Part shown: positions 27,669 to 39,456 of the stretch, in pieces
Layout of the letters: each line of letters begins with the position of its first letter
Numbering within the stretch: the stretch's first letter is position 1
Assembly (NCBI RefSeq): GCF_000687915.1
Contig: NZ_JHZY01000004.1
Span: forward strand, 1,250,001-1,314,000
Reading direction: 5' to 3'
DNA length: 64,000 nucleotides
DNA from: Leeuwenhoekiella sp. MAR_2009_132
GTDB taxonomy: Bacteria > Bacteroidota > Bacteroidia > Flavobacteriales > Flavobacteriaceae
Position numbers and translations under genes: made by a program
The notes under the pieces: generated by a model
The model's database searches: none
Told to the model about the DNA's origin: nothing
The model's input: the letters and a program-made list of their open reading frames with translations, nothing else

Positions 27669-28181
27669 ATGAAAACATTTAAACTCACACTTATTTTTGC
27701 ACTTTCTCTATTACTTGTAAACTGCGGAGATAAAGAAAATAAGGAAGAAAAAGAAACTGTAAAAATTGGCGCTAACAATACATCTACGTCAAAAAAAGCT
27801 GACGAAAATGTAACTGAAGTTGTTCTTCTAGCTACAGATTTAATGCAGTTTGATAAAAATGAAATACGCGTTGCTGCGGGTAAAAAAGTAAAATTAACCT
27901 TACGTCATACTGGTAAACAACCTGTTGAAGTTATGGGTCATAATTTTGTTTTATTAACCCAAGGCACAGAGATTCCTGCATTTGGAGCTAAAGCTTCTGC
28001 AGCAAGAGACAATGGCTATATTCCTGAAGGTACAGACGCGGTAATCGTAAATACAAAAATGCTAGGTGGCGGCCAGTCAGATACTATAGAATTTGATGCA
28101 CCAGAGCCTGGTACTTATGACTTTATCTGTAGTTTTCCCGGTCATTATAGTGTAATGAAAGGTAAGTTTATTGTAGAGTAA
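27669..28181 (+). CDS. Azurin, blue copper lipoprotein
   Basis: A periplasmic type 1 copper protein that carries electrons. The lipobox LLLVNC (Cys19) anchors it to a membrane and a charged linker follows. The cupredoxin domain (about 48-170) has all copper ligands: H91 in VMGHNF, then C154, H159 and M163 in DFICSFPGHYSVMKG. The YIPEGTDAVIVNTK segment is typical of azurin. Flavobacterial azurins are often lipid-anchored. It precedes trehalase by 88 bases, but a strong terminator separates them. Confidence 0.94.
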   Translation: MKTFKLTLIFALSLLLVNCGDKENKEEKETVKIGANNTSTSKKADENVTEVVLLATDLMQFDKNEIRVAAGKKVKLTLRHTGKQPVEVMGHNFVLLTQGTEIPAFGAKASAARDNGYIPEGTDAVIVNTKMLGGGQSDTIEFDAPEPGTYDFICSFPGHYSVMKGKFIVE

Positions 28182-28269: not shown

Positions 28270-29874
28270 ATGATTAAATGCTATTCCCTAATACTCGCAA
28301 TCCTAATGACGTTATCAGTTACTTCCTGTAAAAAAGAATCACAAACAGATTCTGCAATACAGGAACCAATAAATTTTCCTAATAAAAATCTAGATCCTAT
28401 AGATCGTTACGGAGATCTCCTTATAGACGTACAAACTAATCGCATATTTCCTGACGGAAAAACATTTGTAGATTGCGAGCCTAAATTTCCTTCAGACAGT
28501 ATTTTAGCAAATTACAAACGTCTTAAAGATCTTCCTGATTTTGATTTAAAAGCATTTGTACTTGAGAATTTTACACTACCTGAGATTTCTACTTCAACTT
28601 TTGAATCTGATACTACTCGTACAACAGCAGAACATATTAATGCACTTTGGCCCTATTTAAAAAGAGATGCAGATGCGGTAGAAAATGGTTCTAGAATCTC
28701 ATTACCCAAAGCCTATATTGTACCCGGCGGTCGTTTTCAAGAGGTTTATTATTGGGATAGTTATTTTATTTTATTAGGATTGAAAGATGCCGGTGAGGTT
28801 GAATTAATTGAAAATATCTTAGACAACTTTGCATATCAAATAGAGACTATAGGTTTTATCCCTAATGGTAACAGAACTTATTATCTAGGCAGATCACAAC
28901 CTCCATTTTTTGCAGAAATGGTAAACCTTCTTGCAAGTATTAAAGAGGAAAAAGAAGTGTTTTTAAAATACCACGATGCTCTTGAAAAAGAATATGATTT
29001 TTGGATGAAAGGAGGAGAAGGTCTTACCGAAGATTCTGCCATAGACCGTGTTGTAAAAATGCCAGACGGAAGCTTATTAAACAGATATTACAGTAATACC
29101 ACTACCCCTCGTGCAGAAAGTTATCTTGAAGATGTGACTACAGCAGAAGAGTCTGGTAGAAATGCCGCAGAAGTATATTTAAATATTTCAGCTGCGTGCG
29201 AGAGTGGATGGGATTTTAGCAGCAGATGGTTTGAAGACCCTAATGATATTGCGACCATACAAACTACTCAGATCATCCCTGTAGATTTAAATGCACTTCT
29301 TTATAATCTTGAACAGATGCTTGCTAAGGCACGCAGGTTTAATGACAACACAGAAGGTGCCGAAGAATTGGTCGCAGCCGCAGGCGCTCGTAAGGACGCA
29401 ATTGACTCCTATTTATGGGATGCAGATAAAGGGGTTTATACAGATTACAACTTAACAAAAAAAGCTGCATCTCCTACCCTTTCTCTAGCTATGGTCTATC
29501 CGCTGTATTTTAAAGTGGCCTCACCTCAACAAGCAGAATCTGTAGCTAAAGTTTTAGAAAGTCAATTTTTAAAACCGGGAGGTCTGGTTACCACTCTTAA
29601 AATTAACACCCAGCAATGGGACAGTCCTAACGGGTGGCCGCCTCACCAGTGGCTTGCTGTACGTGGTCTTGAAATCTACGGAAAGAATACTCTTGCTGAA
29701 AAAATTTCTTCAAGATGGTTACACCTAAACGATCAGGTTTATAAACGCACCGGTAAAATGCTTGAAAAATATAATGTGATTGACACCTCACTTGTTGCAG
29801 GTGGCGGTGAATACCCTACTCAGGATGGTTTCGGGTGGACAAATGGGGTTTATTTAGACCTTAAAAAGAATTAA
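28270..29874 (+). CDS. treA: Alpha,alpha-trehalase (GH37), lipoprotein
   Basis: Hydrolyses trehalose to two glucoses. Both family signatures are visible: PGGRFQEVYYWDSY near residue 150 and QWDSPNGWPPHQW near residue 448; the Gly-rich GGGEYPTQDGFGWTNGV near the end is also typical. The N-terminus has a lipobox (LMTLSVTSC, Cys20), so it is envelope-located, probably periplasmic. The length of 534 residues fits. It stands beside a putative 3-keto-glycoside cluster, which raises the possibility of two trehalose routes at one locus, but it has its own terminator. Confidence 0.96.
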   Translation: MIKCYSLILAILMTLSVTSCKKESQTDSAIQEPINFPNKNLDPIDRYGDLLIDVQTNRIFPDGKTFVDCEPKFPSDSILANYKRLKDLPDFDLKAFVLENFTLPEISTSTFESDTTRTTAEHINALWPYLKRDADAVENGSRISLPKAYIVPGGRFQEVYYWDSYFILLGLKDAGEVELIENILDNFAYQIETIGFIPNGNRTYYLGRSQPPFFAEMVNLLASIKEEKEVFLKYHDALEKEYDFWMKGGEGLTEDSAIDRVVKMPDGSLLNRYYSNTTTPRAESYLEDVTTAEESGRNAAEVYLNISAACESGWDFSSRWFEDPNDIATIQTTQIIPVDLNALLYNLEQMLAKARRFNDNTEGAEELVAAAGARKDAIDSYLWDADKGVYTDYNLTKKAASPTLSLAMVYPLYFKVASPQQAESVAKVLESQFLKPGGLVTTLKINTQQWDSPNGWPPHQWLAVRGLEIYGKNTLAEKISSRWLHLNDQVYKRTGKMLEKYNVIDTSLVAGGGEYPTQDGFGWTNGVYLDLKKN

Positions 29875-29960: not shown

Positions 29961-30884
29961 TTAAAGAAAATTGTCACAAGCAACATAGGCATCTATAACA
30001 GCTTGCTCTCCGGCAATACCAGGTTGTGAATTGCCATGTTCCATCCCTAAAATACCTTTAAATCCTTTGCTGTGTATATGCTTAAATATATTCTTATAAT
30101 TAATTTCACCAGTAGTTGGTTCTTTTCGCCCAGGATTATCCCCCATTTGAAAATAAGCTATCTCATCCCAGCAGGCGTCGATATTAGGTAAAAGGTTACC
30201 CTCCTGAATTTGCTGGTGATAAATATCAAATAGAATTTTACAAGCAGGACTATCTACTGCTTTACAAATTTGAAAAGCCTGCGCGCTTTCTTTTAAAAAC
30301 AAACCAGGATGATTATAAAAATTAAGCGGTTCTAAAACCATTACTAAATCTTCAGGTTCAAGAAGCCCAGCGGCCTGTTTTAAAGACTCAATAACATGTG
30401 CTGTTTGATAATTTATATTCTGAGACATATCTACATAACCGGGAACAACGGTCATGTATTTTGCACCCACTCGTTTGGCAACTTCTATAGAAGCCTTTAT
30501 ATCTTTGAGAAACTCATCACGAAGATCTAATTTTCCACTTGTAAGGTTTGGGGCTGTCCAATAAATTTTATGCGCGACAAAAACACCCATTTGCATATTG
30601 CGCTGTTGCATAACCTGAGCCATTTTCTTTTGCAATGCAACTTCACGATTACGCATTTCATTATCTTCAAAAGCAGTAAAACCTTGATCTGCCATAAAAT
30701 GAAGCTGCGCTATTGGATCATCACCTGCGCTATTTTTAAACATCCCCAAATGTGGTGCATAATGCAGATTAAATGTATGCTGAGGCAATTCAATCTCGTT
30801 TTGCATCGCAAATAATTGAGAACCACCCAGAGCTAAAAAGGAGCCACTAAGGGCTCCTTTTTGTATAAATACACGTCTTTTCAT
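29961..30884 (-). CDS. Hydroxypyruvate isomerase-like TIM-barrel protein with Tat-type signal
   Basis: A xylose-isomerase-like TIM barrel of 307 residues. The N-terminus MKRRVFIQKGALSGSFLALG has an RR motif and hydrophobic stretch like a Tat signal, so export as a folded metalloprotein is likely. Candidate metal ligands are the Glu in MVLEPLNFYNHP, Asp in KILFDIYHQQ, His in the next strands and Glu in ILGMEHGNSQ. Named hydroxypyruvate isomerase by similarity only. It is coupled by one base to the small-subunit gene, so it belongs to the GMC oxidoreductase operon and probably acts on its sugar product. Confidence 0.83.
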   Translation of the reverse strand: MKRRVFIQKGALSGSFLALGGSQLFAMQNEIELPQHTFNLHYAPHLGMFKNSAGDDPIAQLHFMADQGFTAFEDNEMRNREVALQKKMAQVMQQRNMQMGVFVAHKIYWTAPNLTSGKLDLRDEFLKDIKASIEVAKRVGAKYMTVVPGYVDMSQNINYQTAHVIESLKQAAGLLEPEDLVMVLEPLNFYNHPGLFLKESAQAFQICKAVDSPACKILFDIYHQQIQEGNLLPNIDACWDEIAYFQMGDNPGRKEPTTGEINYKNIFKHIHSKGFKGILGMEHGNSQPGIAGEQAVIDAYVACDNFL

Positions 30885-31522
30885 TAGAGTGACATCACTT
30901 TTCCGCCACCTGCTTCAGATTCTGGCAAACAGCCAATGTAAGCTCCCGGTATAGGATCATACCATAGTACGTTTTCACCCACTTCTTCACTATTTTTCCA
31001 GGCCCAAACTCCTAAATCACGTACGGCATTTAAATATGCATACGATCCTGCATGTGCATCAAAATCTGCCTTAGGAGCATCTGGATCCTGAGTTTCAGAA
31101 ATTTGCTTCACGTAACCATCACGTGTTTCTTTATCTGCACCAAGATATTTTGCAACGGCACTTTCAAAATCTTCATCTTTACCGTCTATTAGTTCTTTAT
31201 CATAGTTTTCTTTAAAGCTTAAGGCAAAAGCATTTGCTCCAGACTTAAACTCTTCTTTTTGCTTATCTCCTGCGACTTCATTCATGTAACTGTCAATAAA
31301 CTGAGCCAAGTTTAGATCTGATGCTCCCGGAGTATCGCCTTTAGGCAAAATCACATCGAGCACTTTAGTTAGGGCATAACCATTAGTAGCGTTTAAAAAA
31401 ACGGGCTCCCAATCACTTTTAGGTTCGCTTTTACAACTTTGCAATAAGTTAAAAACAGCAGGGGCTACCATAACATAACCAGCGCCCAGACCAATATTTT
31501 TTAAAACCTGTCTTCTTTTCAT
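30884..31522 (-). CDS. Gluconate 2-dehydrogenase subunit 3-like small subunit
   Basis: A 212-residue partner of FAD-dependent GMC sugar dehydrogenases. The N-terminus MKRRQVLKNIGLGAGYVMVA has an RR Tat-like motif and ends at a lipobox-like cysteine (NLLQSCKSEP). In FAD-glucose dehydrogenases this subunit carries the export signal and takes the catalytic subunit along. The typical ILPKGDTPGASDLNLAQFID block is present. It lies two bases after the GMC gene and overlaps the TIM-barrel gene by one base. Confidence 0.9.
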   Translation of the reverse strand: MKRRQVLKNIGLGAGYVMVAPAVFNLLQSCKSEPKSDWEPVFLNATNGYALTKVLDVILPKGDTPGASDLNLAQFIDSYMNEVAGDKQKEEFKSGANAFALSFKENYDKELIDGKDEDFESAVAKYLGADKETRDGYVKQISETQDPDAPKADFDAHAGSYAYLNAVRDLGVWAWKNSEEVGENVLWYDPIPGAYIGCLPESEAGGGKVMSL

Positions 31523-31524
31523 AA

Positions 31525-33234
31525 TTAAGCGAATTTTCCGTTTTTAAATTGTTCTGCTGCGTGTGCTGCAGCTCTTGCAGTAAAAGCCATATATGTTAAT
31601 GATGGGTTCACACAACTTGCTGAAGTCATAAAAGAACCGTCTGTAACATAAACGTTAGGTACTGCATGTACCTGATTATTACCATTTAGAACCGAAGTTT
31701 TAGGATCTCTACCCATACGCGCAGTTCCCATTTCATGAATACCTAATCCCGGTGCTCCCGGATTATCATAGGGCTTAACATCTTTAAAGCCAGCATTAGT
31801 AAGCATTTCTACAGCTTGCTGCTTCATATCTTTTCGCATTTCCCACTCGTTCTCTTTCCACTCTGCATCAAAAGTGATGGTAGGTAGTCCCCACTTATCT
31901 ACTTTATCATAATCTAAGCTCATTTTATTCTCGTGATACGGTAAGCATTCCCCAAAAGCGGTAATACCTATCGTCCAGCCGCCCGGCTCAGAAATTGCTT
32001 TTTTAAGATCTTCACCATATTTCATTTCGGCTACAGCTTCAGTCCAGTCACCACGGCTTGCACCTCCTTGATACCCATAACCTCTTTTAAAGTTAGGTTG
32101 ATCTGTATCGCCACCTACATTCCTAAAGCGAGGAATGTAAAGTCCGTTTGCACGGCGACCTTTGTAATATTTATCTTCAAAACCATCAAACTTTCCAGAA
32201 GCTCCTACCTGAAAATGATGGTCCATTATATTGTGTCCTAATTCTCCACTGTCGTTTCCTAATCCATTTGGAAAGCGTTCAGATTTTGACTGCATTAAAA
32301 TAGATGCAGAAGCAATTGCAGAAGCACATAAGAAGATAACTTTTGCATTAAAAGTCATTTCTTCTTTAGTTTCAGCATCAATAACTTTAACCCCTGTTGC
32401 TAATTTTGTAGTATCGTCATAAACCACCTCCTTTACGATGCTAAACGGTCTTAGCGTCATATTACCTGTTTTTTCAGCAGCAGGTAATGTAGAAGAGTTA
32501 CTACTAAAATAAGCTCCAAACGGGCAACCACGCATACAGCGATTTCTGTATTGACACGCAGATCTACCTTCAAAGGTTTTGTCTGTATAGGTAATATGTG
32601 CGGTACGTCCTATAGTAACCAAACGGTCTTTATAGTTCTGCGCCATGTTTTTCTTAAGATGTTCTTCAACGCAGTTAAGATCCATTGGCGGGCCAAAATG
32701 ACCATCAGGTAATTGAGGTAATCCTAAATTCTCACCACTTACTCCTATATATTCTTCAACCTTATCATACCAGGGTGCAATATCACTGTAACGCACCGGC
32801 CAGTCAACAGCTATCCCTTCTTTTTTATTTGCTTCAAAATCAATGTCGCTTAGACGATAACTCTGGCGACCCCACATAATAGAACGACCACCCACGTGAT
32901 AACCACGCATCCAGTCAAAACGTTTGGTCTCATTATAGGGGTGTTCTAGATCATTTACAAAAAAGTGGCTGTGCGCCTTGTTTGTGGTATATCCTGTACG
33001 CGCTTGCTTAAATTGCTTGGCCTCCTCTTCTTTTGTAGGCTGTCCTTTAAATTTGAAATCCCAGGGATCCATATTCATAGTAGGATAATCTTCAATATGC
33101 CTCACCATACGGCCGCGTTCAAGAACTAAAGTCTTAAGACCTTGCTCACTTAATTCTTTGGCAGCCCAGCCGCCGCTAATTCCAGTACCTACCACAATGG
33201 CATCGTACATCTCTTCAGGTTTAATACTACTCAC
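31525..33234 (-). CDS. GMC-family FAD oxidoreductase (sugar dehydrogenase type)
   Basis: A 569-residue flavoprotein. The FAD Rossmann motif VVGTGISGGWAAKEL is near the N-terminus and the GMC C-terminal part includes GLGIHEMGTARMG (catalytic His) and NVYVTDGSFMTSASCVNPSLT. Three cysteines spaced C-x5-C-x3-C lie mid-protein (32524-32556), a possible Fe-S site as in FAD-glucose dehydrogenases. It has no signal peptide; the downstream small subunit probably carries it out by Tat. I chose the GTG at 33234 because a TAnnTTTG box covers the more upstream TTG; ATG at 33210 is possible. Oxidation of a sugar at C3 is the favoured role. Confidence 0.85.
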   Translation of the reverse strand: MSSIKPEEMYDAIVVGTGISGGWAAKELSEQGLKTLVLERGRMVRHIEDYPTMNMDPWDFKFKGQPTKEEEAKQFKQARTGYTTNKAHSHFFVNDLEHPYNETKRFDWMRGYHVGGRSIMWGRQSYRLSDIDFEANKKEGIAVDWPVRYSDIAPWYDKVEEYIGVSGENLGLPQLPDGHFGPPMDLNCVEEHLKKNMAQNYKDRLVTIGRTAHITYTDKTFEGRSACQYRNRCMRGCPFGAYFSSNSSTLPAAEKTGNMTLRPFSIVKEVVYDDTTKLATGVKVIDAETKEEMTFNAKVIFLCASAIASASILMQSKSERFPNGLGNDSGELGHNIMDHHFQVGASGKFDGFEDKYYKGRRANGLYIPRFRNVGGDTDQPNFKRGYGYQGGASRGDWTEAVAEMKYGEDLKKAISEPGGWTIGITAFGECLPYHENKMSLDYDKVDKWGLPTITFDAEWKENEWEMRKDMKQQAVEMLTNAGFKDVKPYDNPGAPGLGIHEMGTARMGRDPKTSVLNGNNQVHAVPNVYVTDGSFMTSASCVNPSLTYMAFTARAAAHAAEQFKNGKFA

Positions 33235-33276
33235 GTTTTTTCTAGTTTTTTGATAATATATTCTAGCCAATGCTAT

Positions 33277-33284
33277 CAAATATA
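33277..33284 (-). promoter_or_regulatory. -7 promoter box of the GMC oxidoreductase operon
   Basis: TATATTTG on the minus strand, 43 bases before the GTG start. It overlaps an in-frame TTG at 33279, which therefore is unlikely to be the start. A TTTG lies 28 bases upstream, further than usual. Confidence 0.5.
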
Positions 33285-33403
33285 TAAATTTTAAGTTATT
33301 TTTTAGTTAAACCAAAAAAAGTATAATTTAGAGATCTTATATCTTTTGCACCTTTTTCATCCAATTTTGAGACTCGTGCAAATCAACCTAATTTACTCAA
33401 CCA

Positions 33404-34381
33404 ATGAACGTTAAACTCTTACTAACAACCCTAATACTACTCGCAGTTATCTCGTGTAAAAACAAAAATAAAACTGAAAATAATGTAGATGAAAGCGTTG
33501 TAGTTACTCAAAAAGAACCATTTTTCAAGATTTCTCTCGCACAGTGGTCACTTAACAAAGCAATTCGCAGCGGAGAAATGAACCCTCTAGACTTTGCAGA
33601 AAAAGCACACGAAATGGGTTTTGAAGGTATTGAATATGTAAGTCAGTTATACACACCCTTAATGGAAACATTTTCTGATGATAAAACCGCATTAGATTCT
33701 ATTCTTCCTAAATTGAAAGCCAAGTCTGAAGAATTTAATGTGCAAAACGTTTTGATAATGGTTGATGCAGAAGGAGATCTTGCTGTAGCAGATGACGATG
33801 AGCGTAATACCGCTGTAGAAAATCATAAAAAATGGATTGATGCCGCCGCTTATTTAGGCTGTCACGCAATTCGCGTTAATTTGATAGGCGCTCCAGATAA
33901 GGAGGTTTGGAAAACTAGCGCAATAGATGGTTTGGGGAAATTAGCAGAATATGGAGCTTCTAAAAACATAGACGTAATTGTCGAAAATCACGGCGGCTTT
34001 TCTTCTAACGCAAAATTATTAATGGAAGTTATCAATACGATTGATAAACCCAATTGCGGTACGCTTCCTGACTTTGGTAATTTTTGTGTAAAACGTGAAA
34101 ATGGTGCGCAATGGGATGGTGCTTGTGTTGAGGAATATCCAAGGTATCAAGGTATTGAAGAAATGATGCCAAAAGCTTTAGCCGTTAGCGCAAAGACTTA
34201 TAACTTTGATGAAGCAGGAGAAGAAACCATTATGGACTTTACCAAGATTCTTCAACTTGTAAAAAATGCGGGATACACAGGCTTTATAGGTATTGAATAT
34301 GAAGGTGAAAACCTCACCGCCGAAGAAGGAATTATAAAAACTAAAGAATTACTACTTTCTGCAGCACAAAATCTTAACTAA
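33404..34381 (+). CDS. Sugar phosphate isomerase/epimerase-like lipoprotein
   Basis: A TIM-barrel protein of 325 residues with a lipobox (LLAVISCKNKN), so it is anchored in the envelope. Family features include SLAQWSLNKAIRSGEMNPLD at the first strand, GFEGIEYVSQL, and the metal-type residues in IDVIVENHGG and TLPDFGNFC, then GFIGIEYEGEN. A periplasmic location makes phosphate esters unlikely substrates; a keto-sugar epimerase or isomerase is more plausible. It opens the forward arm of the cluster and is followed nine bases later by the MFS permease. Confidence 0.85.
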   Translation: MNVKLLLTTLILLAVISCKNKNKTENNVDESVVVTQKEPFFKISLAQWSLNKAIRSGEMNPLDFAEKAHEMGFEGIEYVSQLYTPLMETFSDDKTALDSILPKLKAKSEEFNVQNVLIMVDAEGDLAVADDDERNTAVENHKKWIDAAAYLGCHAIRVNLIGAPDKEVWKTSAIDGLGKLAEYGASKNIDVIVENHGGFSSNAKLLMEVINTIDKPNCGTLPDFGNFCVKRENGAQWDGACVEEYPRYQGIEEMMPKALAVSAKTYNFDEAGEETIMDFTKILQLVKNAGYTGFIGIEYEGENLTAEEGIIKTKELLLSAAQNLN

Positions 34382-34389
34382 TCTTTTTT

Positions 34390-35622
34390 ATGAAATCATT
34401 TATTCGCGTACAGCTATCAATCATGATGTTTCTGGAGTTTTTTATCTGGGGTGGCTGGTTTGTTACATTAGGTACCTTTATGGGACAAAATTTAAATGCT
34501 ACCGCCGGCGAGATAGGCGCTGCATTCTCAACACAATCCTGGGGAGCAATTATTGCCCCATTTATAATTGGGTTAATTGCAGACCGGTACTTTAATGCAG
34601 AACGTATTCTGGGTGTCCTACATCTTATAGGCGCTGTTCTTATGTATCAAATGGCAAATGCTACAGATTTTGCGGCTTTCTATCCCTATGTTTTAGGGTA
34701 TATGATTGCCTATATGCCAACTCTTGCCTTAGTAAACTCAGTATCTTTTAGACAGTTAAAAGACCCTGCAAAAGAGTTTTCTTACATACGTGTATTTGGC
34801 ACAATAGGGTGGATTGTTGCCGGGGTGGTTATTAGCTATATATTTTTCTGGGATAGTACCGAAGCATTAGCTGCAGGCGCTCTTAAAAACACTTTTTTAA
34901 TGACCGCTATTGCTTCGGCAGTATTGGGTATTTTTAGTTTTACATTACCTAAAACACCTCCTGTTGTTGCTAAAGGAGAAAAAATAGGATTACGTGATAT
35001 ATTAGGACTTGATGCGCTTTCACTTCTTAAAGACCGAAACTTTCTTGTATTCTTCCTATCTTCTATTCTCATTTGTATTCCGTTAGCATTTTACTATCAG
35101 AATTTGAGTCCGTTTTTAACTGAAATAGGTATGGAAGGTTCAACCGCCAAGGCAGCCCTGGGTCAGGTATCTGAAGTGTTATTTATGCTTTTACTACCAT
35201 TATTCTTTAAACGTTTTGGTGTAAAATTCACCTTACTTATAGGTATGGCGGCGTGGGCAGTTCGGTATTTATTATTCGCTTATGGCAATGCAGACGAGCT
35301 CGTATTTATGCTGTTTATAGGTATTGCATTGCACGGTATTTGCTATGATTTTTTCTTTGTTTCAGGACAAATTTATACAGATAGTAAAGCAGGAGAGAAG
35401 TTTAAAAGTTCAGCTCAAGGCCTTATCACATTAGCCACCTACGGTGTAGGTATGTTAGTAGGCTTCTTTATAGCAGGTAAAGTAACAGACAGCAATTTAT
35501 TGAGTGAAGGGGTACACGACTGGAATGGAATTTGGACATTTCCGGTGCTGTTTGCTGTAGCTGTTATGGTTCTTTTTGCTATATTCTTCAAGAACGAAAA
35601 AGTAGAAGAAAAACATTTATAA
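34390..35622 (+). CDS. NupG-like MFS permease
   Basis: A 410-residue transporter with about 12 membrane helices in the nucleoside:H+ symporter (NupG/XapB) branch: FLEFFIWGGWFVTLGTFMG at the N-terminus and GICYDFFFVSGQIYTDSKAG in the C-half are typical. In Bacteroidota such permeases often lie beside Gfo/Idh/MocA and TIM-barrel genes and are thought to take up sugar derivatives. Here it most likely imports the keto-sugar or its product. It lies one base before the next gene. Confidence 0.87.
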   Translation: MKSFIRVQLSIMMFLEFFIWGGWFVTLGTFMGQNLNATAGEIGAAFSTQSWGAIIAPFIIGLIADRYFNAERILGVLHLIGAVLMYQMANATDFAAFYPYVLGYMIAYMPTLALVNSVSFRQLKDPAKEFSYIRVFGTIGWIVAGVVISYIFFWDSTEALAAGALKNTFLMTAIASAVLGIFSFTLPKTPPVVAKGEKIGLRDILGLDALSLLKDRNFLVFFLSSILICIPLAFYYQNLSPFLTEIGMEGSTAKAALGQVSEVLFMLLLPLFFKRFGVKFTLLIGMAAWAVRYLLFAYGNADELVFMLFIGIALHGICYDFFFVSGQIYTDSKAGEKFKSSAQGLITLATYGVGMLVGFFIAGKVTDSNLLSEGVHDWNGIWTFPVLFAVAVMVLFAIFFKNEKVEEKHL

Positions 35623-35623
35623 G

Positions 35624-36775
35624 ATGAAAAAATTAAAAATGGGAATGGTAGGCGGTGGCCAGGGTTCTTTTATAGGAGATGTACACCGTAGAGCTTCCAG
35701 AATAGATGGGATGATAGATTTAGTTTGTGGTGCCTTTAGCAGTGATGCAGAACGCAGCATCAAATCTGCCGAAGCATTAGGTGTTGCTCCTGAGCGCGCT
35801 TACAAAAGTTTTGAGGAAATGATTAAAAAGGAAGCAGAGCTTCCTGAAGCAGAACGTATGGATTTTGTTTCTATCGTAACTCCAAATCATATGCACTTTC
35901 CACCGGCAAAAATGGCCTTAGAACATGGTTTTCACGTTATTTGCGATAAGCCGGTTACACTTACGCTAGAAGAAGCTTTTGAACTTCAAAAAGTAGTTAG
36001 AAGCAGCGGAAAAGTATTTGCTTTGACACACAACTACACCGGTTATCCTATGGTCAAGCAAGCACGATTAATGGTTGCAAATGGTGAACTTGGAGAAATA
36101 CGCAAAGTAGTTGTACACTACTTACAAGGGTGGATGTCTACCGCTGTTGAAGAAACCGAAAACAAACAAGCCAGCTGGCGCGTTGATCCTAAAAAATCTG
36201 GAATTGGCGGTGCTTTAGGCGACATAGGTACGCACGCTGAAAACTTAACCGAATATATCACGGGTAAAAAAATTGTAGAAGTTGCTGCTGACCTCAGCAG
36301 TTTTGGCGCAGGGCGTGTTTTAGATGATGACGGTAATATTTTATTGCGTCTTGAAGGTAATACTAAAGGCTCTTTGAGTATTTCGCAAATAGCAACCGGT
36401 GAAGAAAACAACCTCGGCATACGTGTTTATGGTACAAAAGGAAGTGTCGCCTGGTATCAGGAAAACCCTAATGAGCTTACCGCATATTGGTTAGACAAGC
36501 CGAAACAGATTTACACACCGGGTGGAAACGGCACTTATGCAGAATCTACCGAATATACCCGAGTTCCTCCCGGCCATCCGGAAGGTTATTTAGAAGGTTT
36601 CGCTACCATTTACAGAAGCTTTGCTAAAGAAGTTCTCGCCGTAAAAGACGGAGCAGCTTGCTCTGAACGACCAGATTTTCCAACTATAGATGACGGTTTA
36701 AGAGGTATGCAGTTTATTTACGCATCTGTGGCATCAAGCGACAATAATGCCGCCTGGGTAAGCTTAACAAATTAA
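35624..36775 (+). CDS. Gfo/Idh/MocA-family oxidoreductase
   Basis: A 383-residue NAD(P)-dependent sugar dehydrogenase. The Rossmann motif GMVGGGQGSFIGDVHRRA is at the N-terminus; the catalytic-type lysine lies in CDKPVTLTLEEAF and the acid/histidine pair in LGDIGTHAENL. No signal peptide is seen, so it is cytoplasmic. Inferred role: interconversion of a 3-keto-sugar and the parent sugar after uptake. Its start is one base after the permease stop. Confidence 0.9.
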   Translation: MKKLKMGMVGGGQGSFIGDVHRRASRIDGMIDLVCGAFSSDAERSIKSAEALGVAPERAYKSFEEMIKKEAELPEAERMDFVSIVTPNHMHFPPAKMALEHGFHVICDKPVTLTLEEAFELQKVVRSSGKVFALTHNYTGYPMVKQARLMVANGELGEIRKVVVHYLQGWMSTAVEETENKQASWRVDPKKSGIGGALGDIGTHAENLTEYITGKKIVEVAADLSSFGAGRVLDDDGNILLRLEGNTKGSLSISQIATGEENNLGIRVYGTKGSVAWYQENPNELTAYWLDKPKQIYTPGGNGTYAESTEYTRVPPGHPEGYLEGFATIYRSFAKEVLAVKDGAACSERPDFPTIDDGLRGMQFIYASVASSDNNAAWVSLTN

Positions 36776-36783
36776 TAATTTAA

Positions 36784-36812
36784 AAACGCAGCGTCACTTA
36801 GACGCTGTGTTT
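36784..36812 (+). promoter_or_regulatory. Strong intercistronic hairpin
   Basis: A 12-bp stem (one G-U pair) with a 5-base loop: positions 36784-36795 pair with 36801-36812. It lies between the Gfo/Idh/MocA gene and the TIM-barrel gene but is not followed by a T-run, so an mRNA-processing or attenuation element is more likely than a full terminator. Confidence 0.6.
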
Positions 36813-36831
36813 GTATAAAACAAACAACCAA

Positions 36832-37887
36832 ATGAAAACCATAAAAGGCCCTGCAGTATTTCTCGCTCAGTTTATGGACGATAAAGAACCCTTCAATTCT
36901 CTTGATGGGTTATGCAAATGGGCAAGCAATCTCGGTTATAAAGGAATTCAAATCCCTACCTGGGAAAACCGGTTAATCGATCTTAAAAAAGCAGCAGAAA
37001 GTAAAACCTATTGCGATGAACTTAAAGGTAAAGTAAACAGCTACGGTCTCGAAATTACCGAACTGTGTACACATCTTCAAGGACAACTGGTTGCAGTACA
37101 TCCCGCTTATGATGAGATGTTTGATAATTTTGCTCCAGAAGGTTTTAAAAACAACCCAAAAAAACGTCAGGAATGGGCTGTTGACCAATTGATGTGTGCC
37201 GCAAAAGCAAGTAGAAATCTTGGCATAGACGTTCACGGTACATTTAGCGGTGCATTACTTTGGCATACCTTTCACCCCTGGCCACAGCGCCCACCAGGAT
37301 TAGTAGAACTAGGATTTAAAGAACTTGCAAATCGCTGGACTCCTATTTTGAATGCTTTTGACGAGCAGGGAGTTGATGTTTGCTATGAAGTGCATCCCGG
37401 AGAAGATATTCACGATGGGGTTACTTTTGAGCGTTTCCGCGAAGCGACAGGTAATCACAAACGGGTAAATATTTTATATGACCCCAGCCATTTTGTGCTT
37501 CAGCAATTAGATTACATTGAATATATAGACAACTACCACGAGTTTATAAAGATGTTTCACGTTAAGGATTCAGAATTTAATCCTACGGGCAAAAAAGGTG
37601 CTTTTGGCGGTTATGGCGACTGGAGAGATCGCGCAGGACGTTACCGCTCTTTAGGTGATGGACAAATAGATTTTAAAACCATTTTTACAAAACTTACCGA
37701 ATACAGCTGTGACGTATGGGCGGTTATGGAATGGGAATGCTGTATCAAATCTCCTGATCAAGGAGCTCGTGAAGGCGCCCCGTTTATTGCCAGTCATATT
37801 ATTGAAGCTACAGAAAAAGCTTTTGATGATTTCGCCGGCGCGGAAACAGACGAAGCTAAATTGAAACGAATTTTAGGCATTAAATAA
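36832..37887 (+). CDS. Sugar phosphate isomerase/epimerase (TIM barrel)
   Basis: A cytoplasmic AP-endonuclease-2-like TIM barrel of 351 residues. Probable metal ligands are Glu in VDVCYEVHPGE, Asp in VNILYDPSHFVLQQ, His in FIKMFHVKDSEF and Glu in VWAVMEWECC. I chose ATG 36832; the frame opens 21 bases earlier inside the hairpin. The family interconverts keto- and aldo-sugars or epimerises them. It follows the Gfo/Idh/MocA gene and precedes two DUF1080 genes, so it fits step three of a keto-glycoside route. Confidence 0.88.
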   Translation: MKTIKGPAVFLAQFMDDKEPFNSLDGLCKWASNLGYKGIQIPTWENRLIDLKKAAESKTYCDELKGKVNSYGLEITELCTHLQGQLVAVHPAYDEMFDNFAPEGFKNNPKKRQEWAVDQLMCAAKASRNLGIDVHGTFSGALLWHTFHPWPQRPPGLVELGFKELANRWTPILNAFDEQGVDVCYEVHPGEDIHDGVTFERFREATGNHKRVNILYDPSHFVLQQLDYIEYIDNYHEFIKMFHVKDSEFNPTGKKGAFGGYGDWRDRAGRYRSLGDGQIDFKTIFTKLTEYSCDVWAVMEWECCIKSPDQGAREGAPFIASHIIEATEKAFDDFAGAETDEAKLKRILGIK

Positions 37888-37895
37888 ATATCACC

Positions 37896-38642
37896 ATGAA
37901 AAAAATCACATTAACCCTAGGCCTTGCTTTAGCACTTTTTGCTTCTTGTAAAGATCAACCCAAAAATTCTGAAAAAGAAGAAGTAGCGCTTACCGAAACG
38001 GAAGAAATACAACAGGAAACTGGCGAGTGGACTGTTCTTTTTGACGGAAGCAATCTAGATCATTGGCACGTTTATAATGGTGCAGAACCTACCCAGTGGA
38101 AAGTAGTTGACGATGCTTTAGTTTTTACACCCGCAGATAACCGGGAGGGAACCGAAAATCTGGTAACAGATAGCACGTATACAAGTTTTGTTTTAAGCCT
38201 TGATTGGAAGATCTCAGAAGGTGGAAACAGTGGGGTATTATGGGGTGTACAAGAAGATCCTAAATTAAACGAGCCGTATTACACAGGTGCAGAAATACAG
38301 GTATTAGACGACGAGCGCCACCCTGATGCTAAAGCAGGAACAACACACCGTTCTGGTGCTTTATATGATATGATTGCAGCTCCTGAAGGTGTTGTAAAAC
38401 CTGCTGGAGAATGGAATACTAATGAGATCACTATTGATTATGATAACAATAAAGGTATTGTAGTTATGAATGGTGAAGAAGTAGTAACATTTCCGGTTAC
38501 TGGTGAAGAATGGGATGCGATGGTTGCAAAATCTAAGTTTGCAGATTGGGAAGCATTTGCTAAGGTAAAATCGGGAAAAATCGCCTTACAAGACCACGGA
38601 AATCAAGTTTCTTACCGAAATATAAAAATCAAACAACTTTAA
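37896..38642 (+). CDS. DUF1080 (3-keto-glycoside hydrolase family) lipoprotein, copy 1
   Basis: A 248-residue lipoprotein (lipobox ALALFASCKDQ) with one DUF1080/PF06439 jelly-roll. Typical marks are VLFDGSNLDHWHVYN, SLDWKISEGGNSGVLWGVQE, GAEIQVLDDERHPDAKAG and KIALQDHGNQVSYRNIKIK. Members of this Pfam family cleave 3-keto-disaccharides. Envelope location suits action on the product of a periplasmic GMC dehydrogenase. Eight bases after the TIM-barrel gene. Confidence 0.9.
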   Translation: MKKITLTLGLALALFASCKDQPKNSEKEEVALTETEEIQQETGEWTVLFDGSNLDHWHVYNGAEPTQWKVVDDALVFTPADNREGTENLVTDSTYTSFVLSLDWKISEGGNSGVLWGVQEDPKLNEPYYTGAEIQVLDDERHPDAKAGTTHRSGALYDMIAAPEGVVKPAGEWNTNEITIDYDNNKGIVVMNGEEVVTFPVTGEEWDAMVAKSKFADWEAFAKVKSGKIALQDHGNQVSYRNIKIKQL

Positions 38643-38643
38643 T

Positions 38644-39456
38644 ATGATGATTAAAAAAACATTTATACTTCCGGCTCTGGCTGCAGGTTTGTTAATCTCC
38701 TGTAATACTTCCGAAGAAAAGAAAACCGACGAGACTACTGCTCCAGTGAAAGACACCACTATGGTGGTTGAAGAAGCCCCCATAACAGATCCTAAAGAAA
38801 CTGAAGTTTGGGAACCAGAACCGGCTGTAGTAAGTTTTAGTGAAAAAGGGATCCCTTCTGACGCGGTTGTATTATTTAATGGTGAAAACCTTGATGCCTG
38901 GAAAAGTGCTACAGACTCTATCGTAAATGCACCGTGGCAAATAAATAAAGACGGTTCTATGACCGTTGTAGGCGGTACAGGAGATATTCAAACTAAAGAA
39001 TCTTTTGGAGATATGCAGCTACACGTAGAATGGCAAGCCCCTCAAGTTGTTGAAGGAGAAGGTCAGGGTCGAGGTAATAGTGGGATCTTTTTACAGGGGT
39101 TATACGAAGTACAGGTTTTAAATAGTTTTGAAAACCGCACCTATTCTAACGGGCAGGCAACAGCAATTTATAAGCAAAGTATCCCGCTAGTAAATGCTAC
39201 AAAACCTACTAAAGAATGGCAGACCTATGACATCATTTATCATCAACCTGTATTTGATGTAGATGGTAACAAGACACAAGCTGCTACCGTAACTGTGTTG
39301 CACAATGGTGTTTTAGTTCAAGATAATGTAGAGATACAAGGTACTACAGAGTATATAGGAAAACCCAAAAATGAAGCCCACGGTGAAGGTCCCATAAAAT
39401 TACAGGATCACGGAAACCCGGTAAGTTTTAGAAATATATGGGTGCGTAAACTTTAA
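38644..39456 (+). CDS. DUF1080 (3-keto-glycoside hydrolase family) lipoprotein, copy 2
   Basis: A second DUF1080 lipoprotein (270 residues, lipobox AAGLLISCNTSEE) that begins one base after the first. The N-terminal linker is Thr/Glu/Pro-rich. The domain shows VLFNGENLDAWKSA, GRGNSGIFLQGLYEVQVLNS and PIKLQDHGNPVSFRNIWVRKL. It differs markedly from copy 1 in the middle, so the pair probably have different glycosidic linkages or anomers as substrates and are not a recent duplication. A perfect-palindrome terminator closes the operon. Confidence 0.9.
   Translation: MMIKKTFILPALAAGLLISCNTSEEKKTDETTAPVKDTTMVVEEAPITDPKETEVWEPEPAVVSFSEKGIPSDAVVLFNGENLDAWKSATDSIVNAPWQINKDGSMTVVGGTGDIQTKESFGDMQLHVEWQAPQVVEGEGQGRGNSGIFLQGLYEVQVLNSFENRTYSNGQATAIYKQSIPLVNATKPTKEWQTYDIIYHQPVFDVDGNKTQAATVTVLHNGVLVQDNVEIQGTTEYIGKPKNEAHGEGPIKLQDHGNPVSFRNIWVRKL

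Follow-up and report, generated by a model that had tools for sequence, protein, structure and literature searches.

Nine genes in two divergent operons

The window analyzed here is a 64,000-nucleotide stretch of the 4.28-Mb genome of Leeuwenhoekiella sp. MAR_2009_132 (C4:1250001-1314000), a member of the Flavobacteriaceae whose nearest named relatives are Leeuwenhoekiella species. It contains nine genes, here called A to I. Three of them, C-B-A, form a minus-strand operon (33234 to 29961), and the other six, D-E-F-G-H-I, a plus-strand operon (33404 to 39456) that diverges from it; an earlier sequence-only reading had taken the set for two tight operons of a periplasmic 3-keto-glycoside pathway. 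Indeed, each gene is an open frame at the position listed below, and the intergenic gaps in both operons measure -1 to 8 bp, with the exception of the 56 bp that separate G from F. The two operons lie 169 bp apart. The family assignments of that reading also hold, as every one scores above its Pfam cutoff: AP_endonuc_2 (A, D, and G), Gluconate_2-dh3 (B), the GMC N- and C-terminal domains (C), Nuc_H_symport (E), Gfo/Idh/MocA (F), and 3keto-disac_hyd, which is DUF1080 (PF06439, cutoff 26.8 bits; 159.3 bits for H and 147.3 bits for I). Signal sequences were judged by eye from the protein sequences. A and B begin with MKRR and a hydrophobic stretch of the twin-arginine translocation (Tat) type, lipobox cysteines are present on B, D, H, and I, and F and G show no signal. 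An Rfam scan of the window at the gathering threshold gave no match, and a Bacteroidetes-type promoter pattern had two matches in the window, compared with 4.4 expected by chance, and none in the divergent gap. The nine genes are as follows.

29961..30884, minus strand: A, Tat-type TIM barrel of the hydroxypyruvate-isomerase/epimerase type (E185-PLN, D220, Y244-x-Q246, E282)
30884..31522, minus strand: B, Tat-type lipoprotein, small subunit of a GMC dehydrogenase (PF13618, 61.9 bits)
31525..33234, minus strand: C, GMC flavoprotein, proposed glycoside 3-dehydrogenase (PF00732/PF05199; C-x5-C-x3-C motif)
33404..34381, plus strand: D, lipoprotein TIM barrel of the 4OVX family, proposed periplasmic 3-keto-glycoside eliminase
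34390..35622, plus strand: E, NupG/YegT-type major facilitator superfamily (MFS) permease, proposed importer of 2-hydroxy-3-keto-glucal or 3-keto-glucose (PF03825; matches to 8zoj and 7dl9)
35624..36775, plus strand: F, cytoplasmic Gfo/Idh/MocA oxidoreductase, proposed 3-keto-glucose reductase
36832..37887, plus strand: G, cytoplasmic 2-hydroxy-3-keto-glucal hydratase by its full-length match to 8ro4 (start, ATG 36832)
37896..38642, plus strand: H, DUF1080 lipoprotein, proposed 3-keto-glycoside lyase (QDHG motif, H234; matches to 4jqt, 8rr2, and 8tda)
38644..39456, plus strand: I, second DUF1080 lipoprotein, of a subfamily other than that of H (QDHG motif; 4qhz, 235 bits; 8rr2 not matched)

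Hydratase, reductase, and dehydrogenase match a published route

The best solved-structure match of G is PDB 8ro4, titled 2-hydroxy-3-keto-glucal hydratase, which scores 562 bits over 349/349 residues, the runner-up reaching 144 bits. Thus, the cytoplasmic TIM barrel that had been read as an epimerase corresponds over its full length to a hydratase instead. We take 8ro4 to be the Agrobacterium enzyme AtHYD; an Agrobacterium tumefaciens plasmid encodes a homologue of G with 64% identity. Residues E186, H188, D217, H243, K245, E300, and E302 of G are identical in 169/169 hydratase rows, a set that includes overlapping pieces of the same genomes. F, in turn, is 49-52% identical to the hydratase-adjacent Gfo proteins of Agrobacterium (plasmid; 50.7%), Pseudoalteromonas, Hymenobacter, and Croceicoccus, and its K109, D200, and H204 are invariant across 37 rows. 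The Gfo protein in the slot of F is 41-46% identical to F in many relatives and 58-95% in others, a split which suggests that two Gfo subtypes share this slot.

The nearest solved relatives of C are the large subunits of glucose and fructose dehydrogenases. Its C-x5-C-x3-C motif, which we take to be the Fe-S motif of flavin adenine dinucleotide-dependent glucose dehydrogenases, is present in 175/176 GMC rows. The frame of C was listed from TTG 33279, but most aligned relatives start at or near GTG 33234, which is probably the true start. From this start C would have no signal peptide of its own and would need to be exported together with B, so that C probably leaves the cell interior by hitch-hiking with this Tat small subunit, in which R3, R4, and C30 are invariant across 29 rows. 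Joint export is the general behavior of two-subunit dehydrogenases of this kind. The same genome holds a second GMC and small-subunit pair (contig C2, L007:8960-11238), with a GMC protein 56% identical to C and no other locus genes beside it, and one family member (G048, L039) has D, E, F, and G with no GMC match anywhere in its genome.

These enzymes correspond to a known route. In Agrobacterium, an operon encodes a GMC glycoside 3-dehydrogenase with its Tat subunit, the Mn eliminase AtOGE that releases 2-hydroxy-3-keto-glucal, a hydratase, and a Gfo protein that makes glucose; the operon enzymes were assayed, with the hydratase evidence called preliminary (PMC10628242). Four of the five parts of this GlycDH-TAT-AtOGE-AtHYD-Gfo set are matched here, by C, B, G, and F, and the four chemical steps are shared (PMC10628242). 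Close homology thus supports the chemistry predicted for G and F and the enzyme kind predicted for C with B, and, as hydratase, GMC, and Gfo proteins all match the Agrobacterium route, bond cleavage at this locus is most likely an elimination. Homology likewise supports the earlier placement of a 3-keto-glycoside route, in which the sugar would be oxidized and cleaved outside the inner membrane and reduced in the cytoplasm. The outline given there, of oxidation, cleavage, and reduction, stands, but it lacked the hydration step, the published Agrobacterium order being oxidation, β-elimination, hydration, and reduction (PMC10628242).

The gene set recurs with the hydratase

We followed the locus in 99 relatives, comprising 13 genomes of the genus (that of the window included), 47 others of the family, and 39 from the rest of the order. 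The hydratase is present in 13/13, 21/47, and 0/39 of these, respectively, and in 57/296 genomes drawn from the phylum. D occurs in 34/34 of the hydratase-bearing relatives compared with 2/65 of the others.

The neighborhood search that the sequence-only reading had called for was also run on named loci, which were chosen by their hydratase, and the gene set recurs in them. The 80 closest of more than 580 were taken, so that the set leans toward near relatives, and the 68 loci of at least 20 kb were counted. GMC and Gfo genes are each present in all 68, B in 64, D in 64, E in 62, H in 54, I in 44, and A in 26 (including 5 that are nearer to the Hymenobacter TIM1 relative), followed by an azurin-like gene in 10 and a trehalase in 6. 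The 37 control open reading frames, taken from other parts of the window, reached at most 8/68, and 27 of them gave no match. The housekeeping neighbors YicC and Gmk appear in 33/68, and part of the recurrence signal therefore reflects a shared place in the chromosome; C and F recur independently of this. The grouping of the locus genes is far beyond chance. Some of the named loci have the set in a one-direction version, and a Pseudoalteromonas plasmid carries a comparable version with an H-N-H TIM barrel in place of D.

D and an H-N-H TIM barrel alternate between loci

Many hydratase loci of Bacteroidota outside the Flavobacteriaceae have, instead of D, a TIM barrel bearing an H-N-H motif (20/20 rows), usually with a cytochrome c. 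The His/Asp/His spacing of this HNH barrel is close to that of AtOGE. We counted 40 of the 47 hydratase places found outside the family (5 of 45 genomes and two second copies were left out). D is present in none of these 40 loci, HNH in 15, and a Hymenobacter-type cytochrome in 11; of the 19 with a GMC gene in reach, 14 have HNH. In contrast, 33 loci of Flavobacteriaceae relatives include 31 with D and none with HNH; in the remaining two, the assembly is fragmented and D sits on another contig. A further nine genomes of the family comprise 4 with D and 5, all of one genus, with a cytochrome and a putative HNH barrel. Thus, the 42 family genomes besides that of the window comprise 35 with D, 5 with HNH, and 2 with neither, and no stretch read holds both. 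D and HNH occur together in 0 of the 68 named and 0 of the 40 other-family loci, and no HNH-class gene was found in the 31 relatives' and 64 named D-type loci. A quick tree built from 89 hydratases places the 36 rows with D, without exception, in one 41-row branch (Shimodaira–Hasegawa-like approximate likelihood-ratio support of 99) whose other 5 rows have neither barrel. The alternation needs one change on this tree, which points to one event rather than many. The genus keeps an HNH-type protein elsewhere in its genomes; in the genome of the window, a lone lipoprotein TIM barrel with H-N-H (C4:547350-548285) has a murF-like gene and a two-component system as its neighbors.

The two kinds of loci also differ in heme motifs. 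In window positions 20000-50000, no frame of at least 80 amino acids contains CxxCH. A short CxxCH frame lies within 8 kb of the hydratase in 0/30 D-type loci of relatives, 8/66 named D-type loci, and 14/15 HNH loci, and relatives of the Hymenobacter locus cytochrome were found in 0/33 loci of family relatives and 0/68 named loci. A clean absence of cytochrome c from D-type loci is refuted by the 8/66 named loci, and the contrast is strong, not absolute. As an electron acceptor we considered an azurin-like lipoprotein (27669-28181, PF00127) encoded convergently to the GMC operon, and rejected it, as it lies near only 10/68 named loci. It is about as frequent as an unrelated α/β-hydrolase neighbor (9/68) and reads as conserved neighborhood. 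The azurin-like gene adjoins the GMC operon in the genus and in 7/21 other hydratase-bearing family genomes; it lies elsewhere in 5/21, and 9/21 have no stand-alone copy.

Gene D resembles C-glycoside eliminases

The structure nearest to D is 4OVX, a solved structure for which we found no assigned function, and C-glycoside eliminase α-subunits are also among the structural matches. The metal site of these α-subunits comprises one His, two Glu, one Asp, and one Lys, and the residues are named for AgCGD2 (PMC8563793). D shares the fold of the C-glycoside eliminases (DgpC, AgCGD2 α) and keeps six of the seven AgCGD2 active-site residues in register, namely the Glu, catalytic His, Asp, Lys, Glu, and Glu (E194, H196, D223, K264, E298, and E300; PMC8563793). 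As in the eliminase pattern, the catalytic His lies two residues after the metal Glu (E194-N-H196), and a second Glu is found in E298-Y-E300. However, the metal-ligand His of the eliminase site is replaced by Ser262 in 116/116 rows, all seven positions being invariant. D further differs in being a lipoprotein and in having no β-subunit gene at its locus, as no such partner was found by Pfam among the nine locus proteins. A second ENH occurs in D at 139-141.

Over a 49-residue stretch of equal span in both proteins, D can be aligned with a DUF6379-paired TIM barrel of Croceicoccus, whose His258, Lys260, Glu294, and Glu296 face S262, K264, E298, and E300 of D. At this Croceicoccus hydratase locus (L150:2978-4392), the TIM barrel carries E-V-H and is directly followed by DUF6379, which we take to be an eliminase β-subunit; the arrangement resembles a C-glycoside eliminase α/β pair. 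The AtOGE type of eliminase, a His-x-His TIM barrel, was not found among the nine window proteins, in which A has E-P-L-N, D has E-N-H, and G has E-V-H. AtOGE is absent from the sequence matches of A and D and, among the fold matches listed, its structure 8BVK is absent for both and 8ro4 is absent for D. The D model lies equally near to eliminases and to several epimerases, and nearer to the isomerase Art22.

From its conserved residues and its distribution, we propose that D is a periplasmic eliminase that replaced the HNH enzyme. More tentatively, the 4OVX family may represent a new class of stand-alone periplasmic 3-keto-glycoside eliminase. In one genome without a hydratase (G037, L065), D lies beside Gfo and DUF1080 genes, which suggests that it can work in another setting.

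DUF1080 proteins, permease E, and gene A

H and I had been read as hydrolases, but "hydrolase" is the name of the family. A Bacteroides 3-keto-O-glycoside lyase has a hydration activity of its own, in which its H275N variant is deficient (PMC13273386). This lyase is probably the DUF1080 protein BT2157, and its H275 would correspond to the QDHG histidine of H and I; the net result of such an enzyme would still be hydrolysis. A third DUF1080 gene of the genome (C4, L008:8633-9409) follows the gene of a long, putatively glycosidase-like protein and lies among genes that are presumably SusC/SusD-like.

Of the 80 named loci, 66 have an MFS gene no more than 6 kb from the hydratase, in the same direction in all 66; the count for the 40 other-family loci is 27, of which 11 have it in the same direction. 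Even among the 21 other-family loci without a nearby GMC gene, MFS is found in 10 (same direction in 5), and one locus (L152) has MFS, Gfo, and hydratase genes in a row and none of the other searched genes. This pairing fits import of the hydratase's substrate by E, though it is no proof. A different MFS protein (c14) recurs in seven family genomes, either next to NupG or, in the absence of NupG, between D and F. Within the genus, identity to E is 93-97% for some species and 69-72% for others, compared with 88-96% for G and mostly 90-95% for F, and this unevenness may reflect allele replacement of E.

The nearest folds to A are hydroxypyruvate isomerase and epimerases. A relative, Hym_TIM1 (30% identical), occurs in 16/40 other-family loci and 5/68 named D-type loci. 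We rejected A as an eliminase, as it has E-P-L-N in place of E-x-H or H-x-H, and its folds are closest to hydroxypyruvate isomerase and epimerases. As a guess, A could be a keto-sugar epimerase (e.g., for 3-keto-galactosides) or a 2-keto/3-keto isomerase.

Proposed pathway and alternative explanations

Collectively, these data make it likely that the nine-gene locus serves glycoside use by oxidation, elimination, hydration, and reduction across two compartments, and it probably breaks sugar-sugar or sugar-plant-compound bonds. C with B would oxidize the 3-OH of a glycoside in the periplasm, where D and/or H and I would cleave the 3-keto-glycoside by β-elimination, releasing the aglycone or second sugar together with 2-hydroxy-3-keto-glucal. 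E would import this glycal or, if a DUF1080 enzyme adds the water as well, 3-keto-glucose. Cytoplasmic G would hydrate the glycal to 3-keto-glucose, which F would reduce to glucose. A probably epimerizes or isomerizes keto-sugar side products. We infer D as the eliminase, elimination rather than hydrolysis by H and I, the substance carried by E, and the part played by A. The overall interpretation of the sequence-only reading is thus partly supported; D as a possible eliminase was absent from it.

The division of labor in the periplasm could be different, with the DUF1080 lipoproteins doing all cleavage, by elimination and hydration with net hydrolysis, and D acting as a periplasmic keto-sugar epimerase or hydratase. 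At least one DUF1080 protein is encoded in 67/68 named loci, one has been linked to lactose growth of Caulobacter (PMC9007349), and the Bacteroides lyase with hydration activity (PMC13273386) and the closeness of the D model to epimerases and to Art22 fit the same idea. However, D has the eliminase E-x-H base with the Lys and the E-x-E set, not the epimerase-like E-x-x-N of A, and the cytoplasmic hydratase, which would be idle were hydration always completed outside, is kept in the loci. We regard this version as rather unlikely. A LacABC-type lactose or trehalose locus, in which a dehydrogenase and a periplasmic 3-keto-disaccharide hydrolase act with no elimination, would account for the GMC protein, small subunit, and DUF1080 proteins, as in Caulobacter, and a trehalase gene is next door in the genus. 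It would leave the hydratase unexplained, and the CxxCH frame is missing from window positions 20000-50000 and from all 30 D-type relatives' loci (though 8 of the 66 named D-type loci have one), so that we consider such a locus very unlikely. The trehalase, a lipoprotein (28270-29874), is inserted beside the locus in this genus and is rare elsewhere; as it accompanies only 6/68 named loci, we rejected trehalose as a substrate suggested by this neighbor.

TIM barrels with a Gfo protein are also the make-up of inositol loci, and G has a weak match to the IolE family model (55.7 bits, cutoff 290). The GMC protein might then oxidize a nonsugar alcohol or polyol, with the TIM barrels and Gfo protein forming an inositol-like catabolic route. 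G scores only 33 bits against an IolE structure, compared with its 562 bits against the hydratase 8ro4, and both the DUF1080 proteins and a GMC protein resembling sugar dehydrogenases are present, which makes this the least probable explanation. Oxidation, elimination, hydration, and reduction of a glycoside remains the reading that we prefer.

Relation to known systems

The pathway itself is already known, and the D-type arrangement appears to be a new variant. In contrast to the Agrobacterium operon, the candidate cleavers here are the lipoproteins D, H, and I, and the transporter is an MFS permease, compared with ABC (ATP-binding cassette) transporters annotated in the plasmid locus; the plasmid stretch with the Agrobacterium hydratase shows no GMC gene. 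In Caulobacter, LacABC and a DUF1080 protein are linked to growth on lactose, in a report that also names BT2157 as a 3-ketotrehalose hydrolase (PMC9007349). We take LacA to be the GMC protein, LacB a cytochrome c, and LacC the small subunit, so that a GMC protein, a small subunit, and a periplasmic DUF1080 protein are shared with our locus. The window locus differs in that no cytochrome gene was found and in having a hydratase, Gfo protein, and MFS permease. F matches the BT_2158 family weakly; we take the BT2158 dehydrogenase of Bacteroides thetaiotaomicron to be of the Gfo type, compared with GMC here. BT2157/BT2158 share with our locus a DUF1080 enzyme that acts on a 3-keto-disaccharide and is fed by a periplasmic glycoside 3-dehydrogenase (PMC11300592, PMC9007349). 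The levoglucosan LgdA-B1-B2-C pathway follows the same four-step logic (PMC7676230), but with another oxidase and substrate, and F scores 121.5 against the levoglucosan dehydrogenase model, whose cutoff is 650. Our literature search, which covered titles and the starts of abstracts, returned no flavobacterial account of the locus; Kastner 2024 (Angew. Chem.) and Nasseri 2024 (Nature) lay outside its reach.

The locus is kept in many genera of marine Flavobacteriaceae, where the names listed for its TIM barrels are only generic ("sugar phosphate isomerase/epimerase," "xylose isomerase," "TIM barrel protein," "hydroxypyruvate isomerase"). The oxidation-elimination-hydration-reduction reading predicts a role for D, and hence for 4OVX, a role for permease E, and glycoside use without a glycoside hydrolase. 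In addition, the Ser that replaces a metal-ligand His in D would provide a natural test of whether elimination needs the third metal His.

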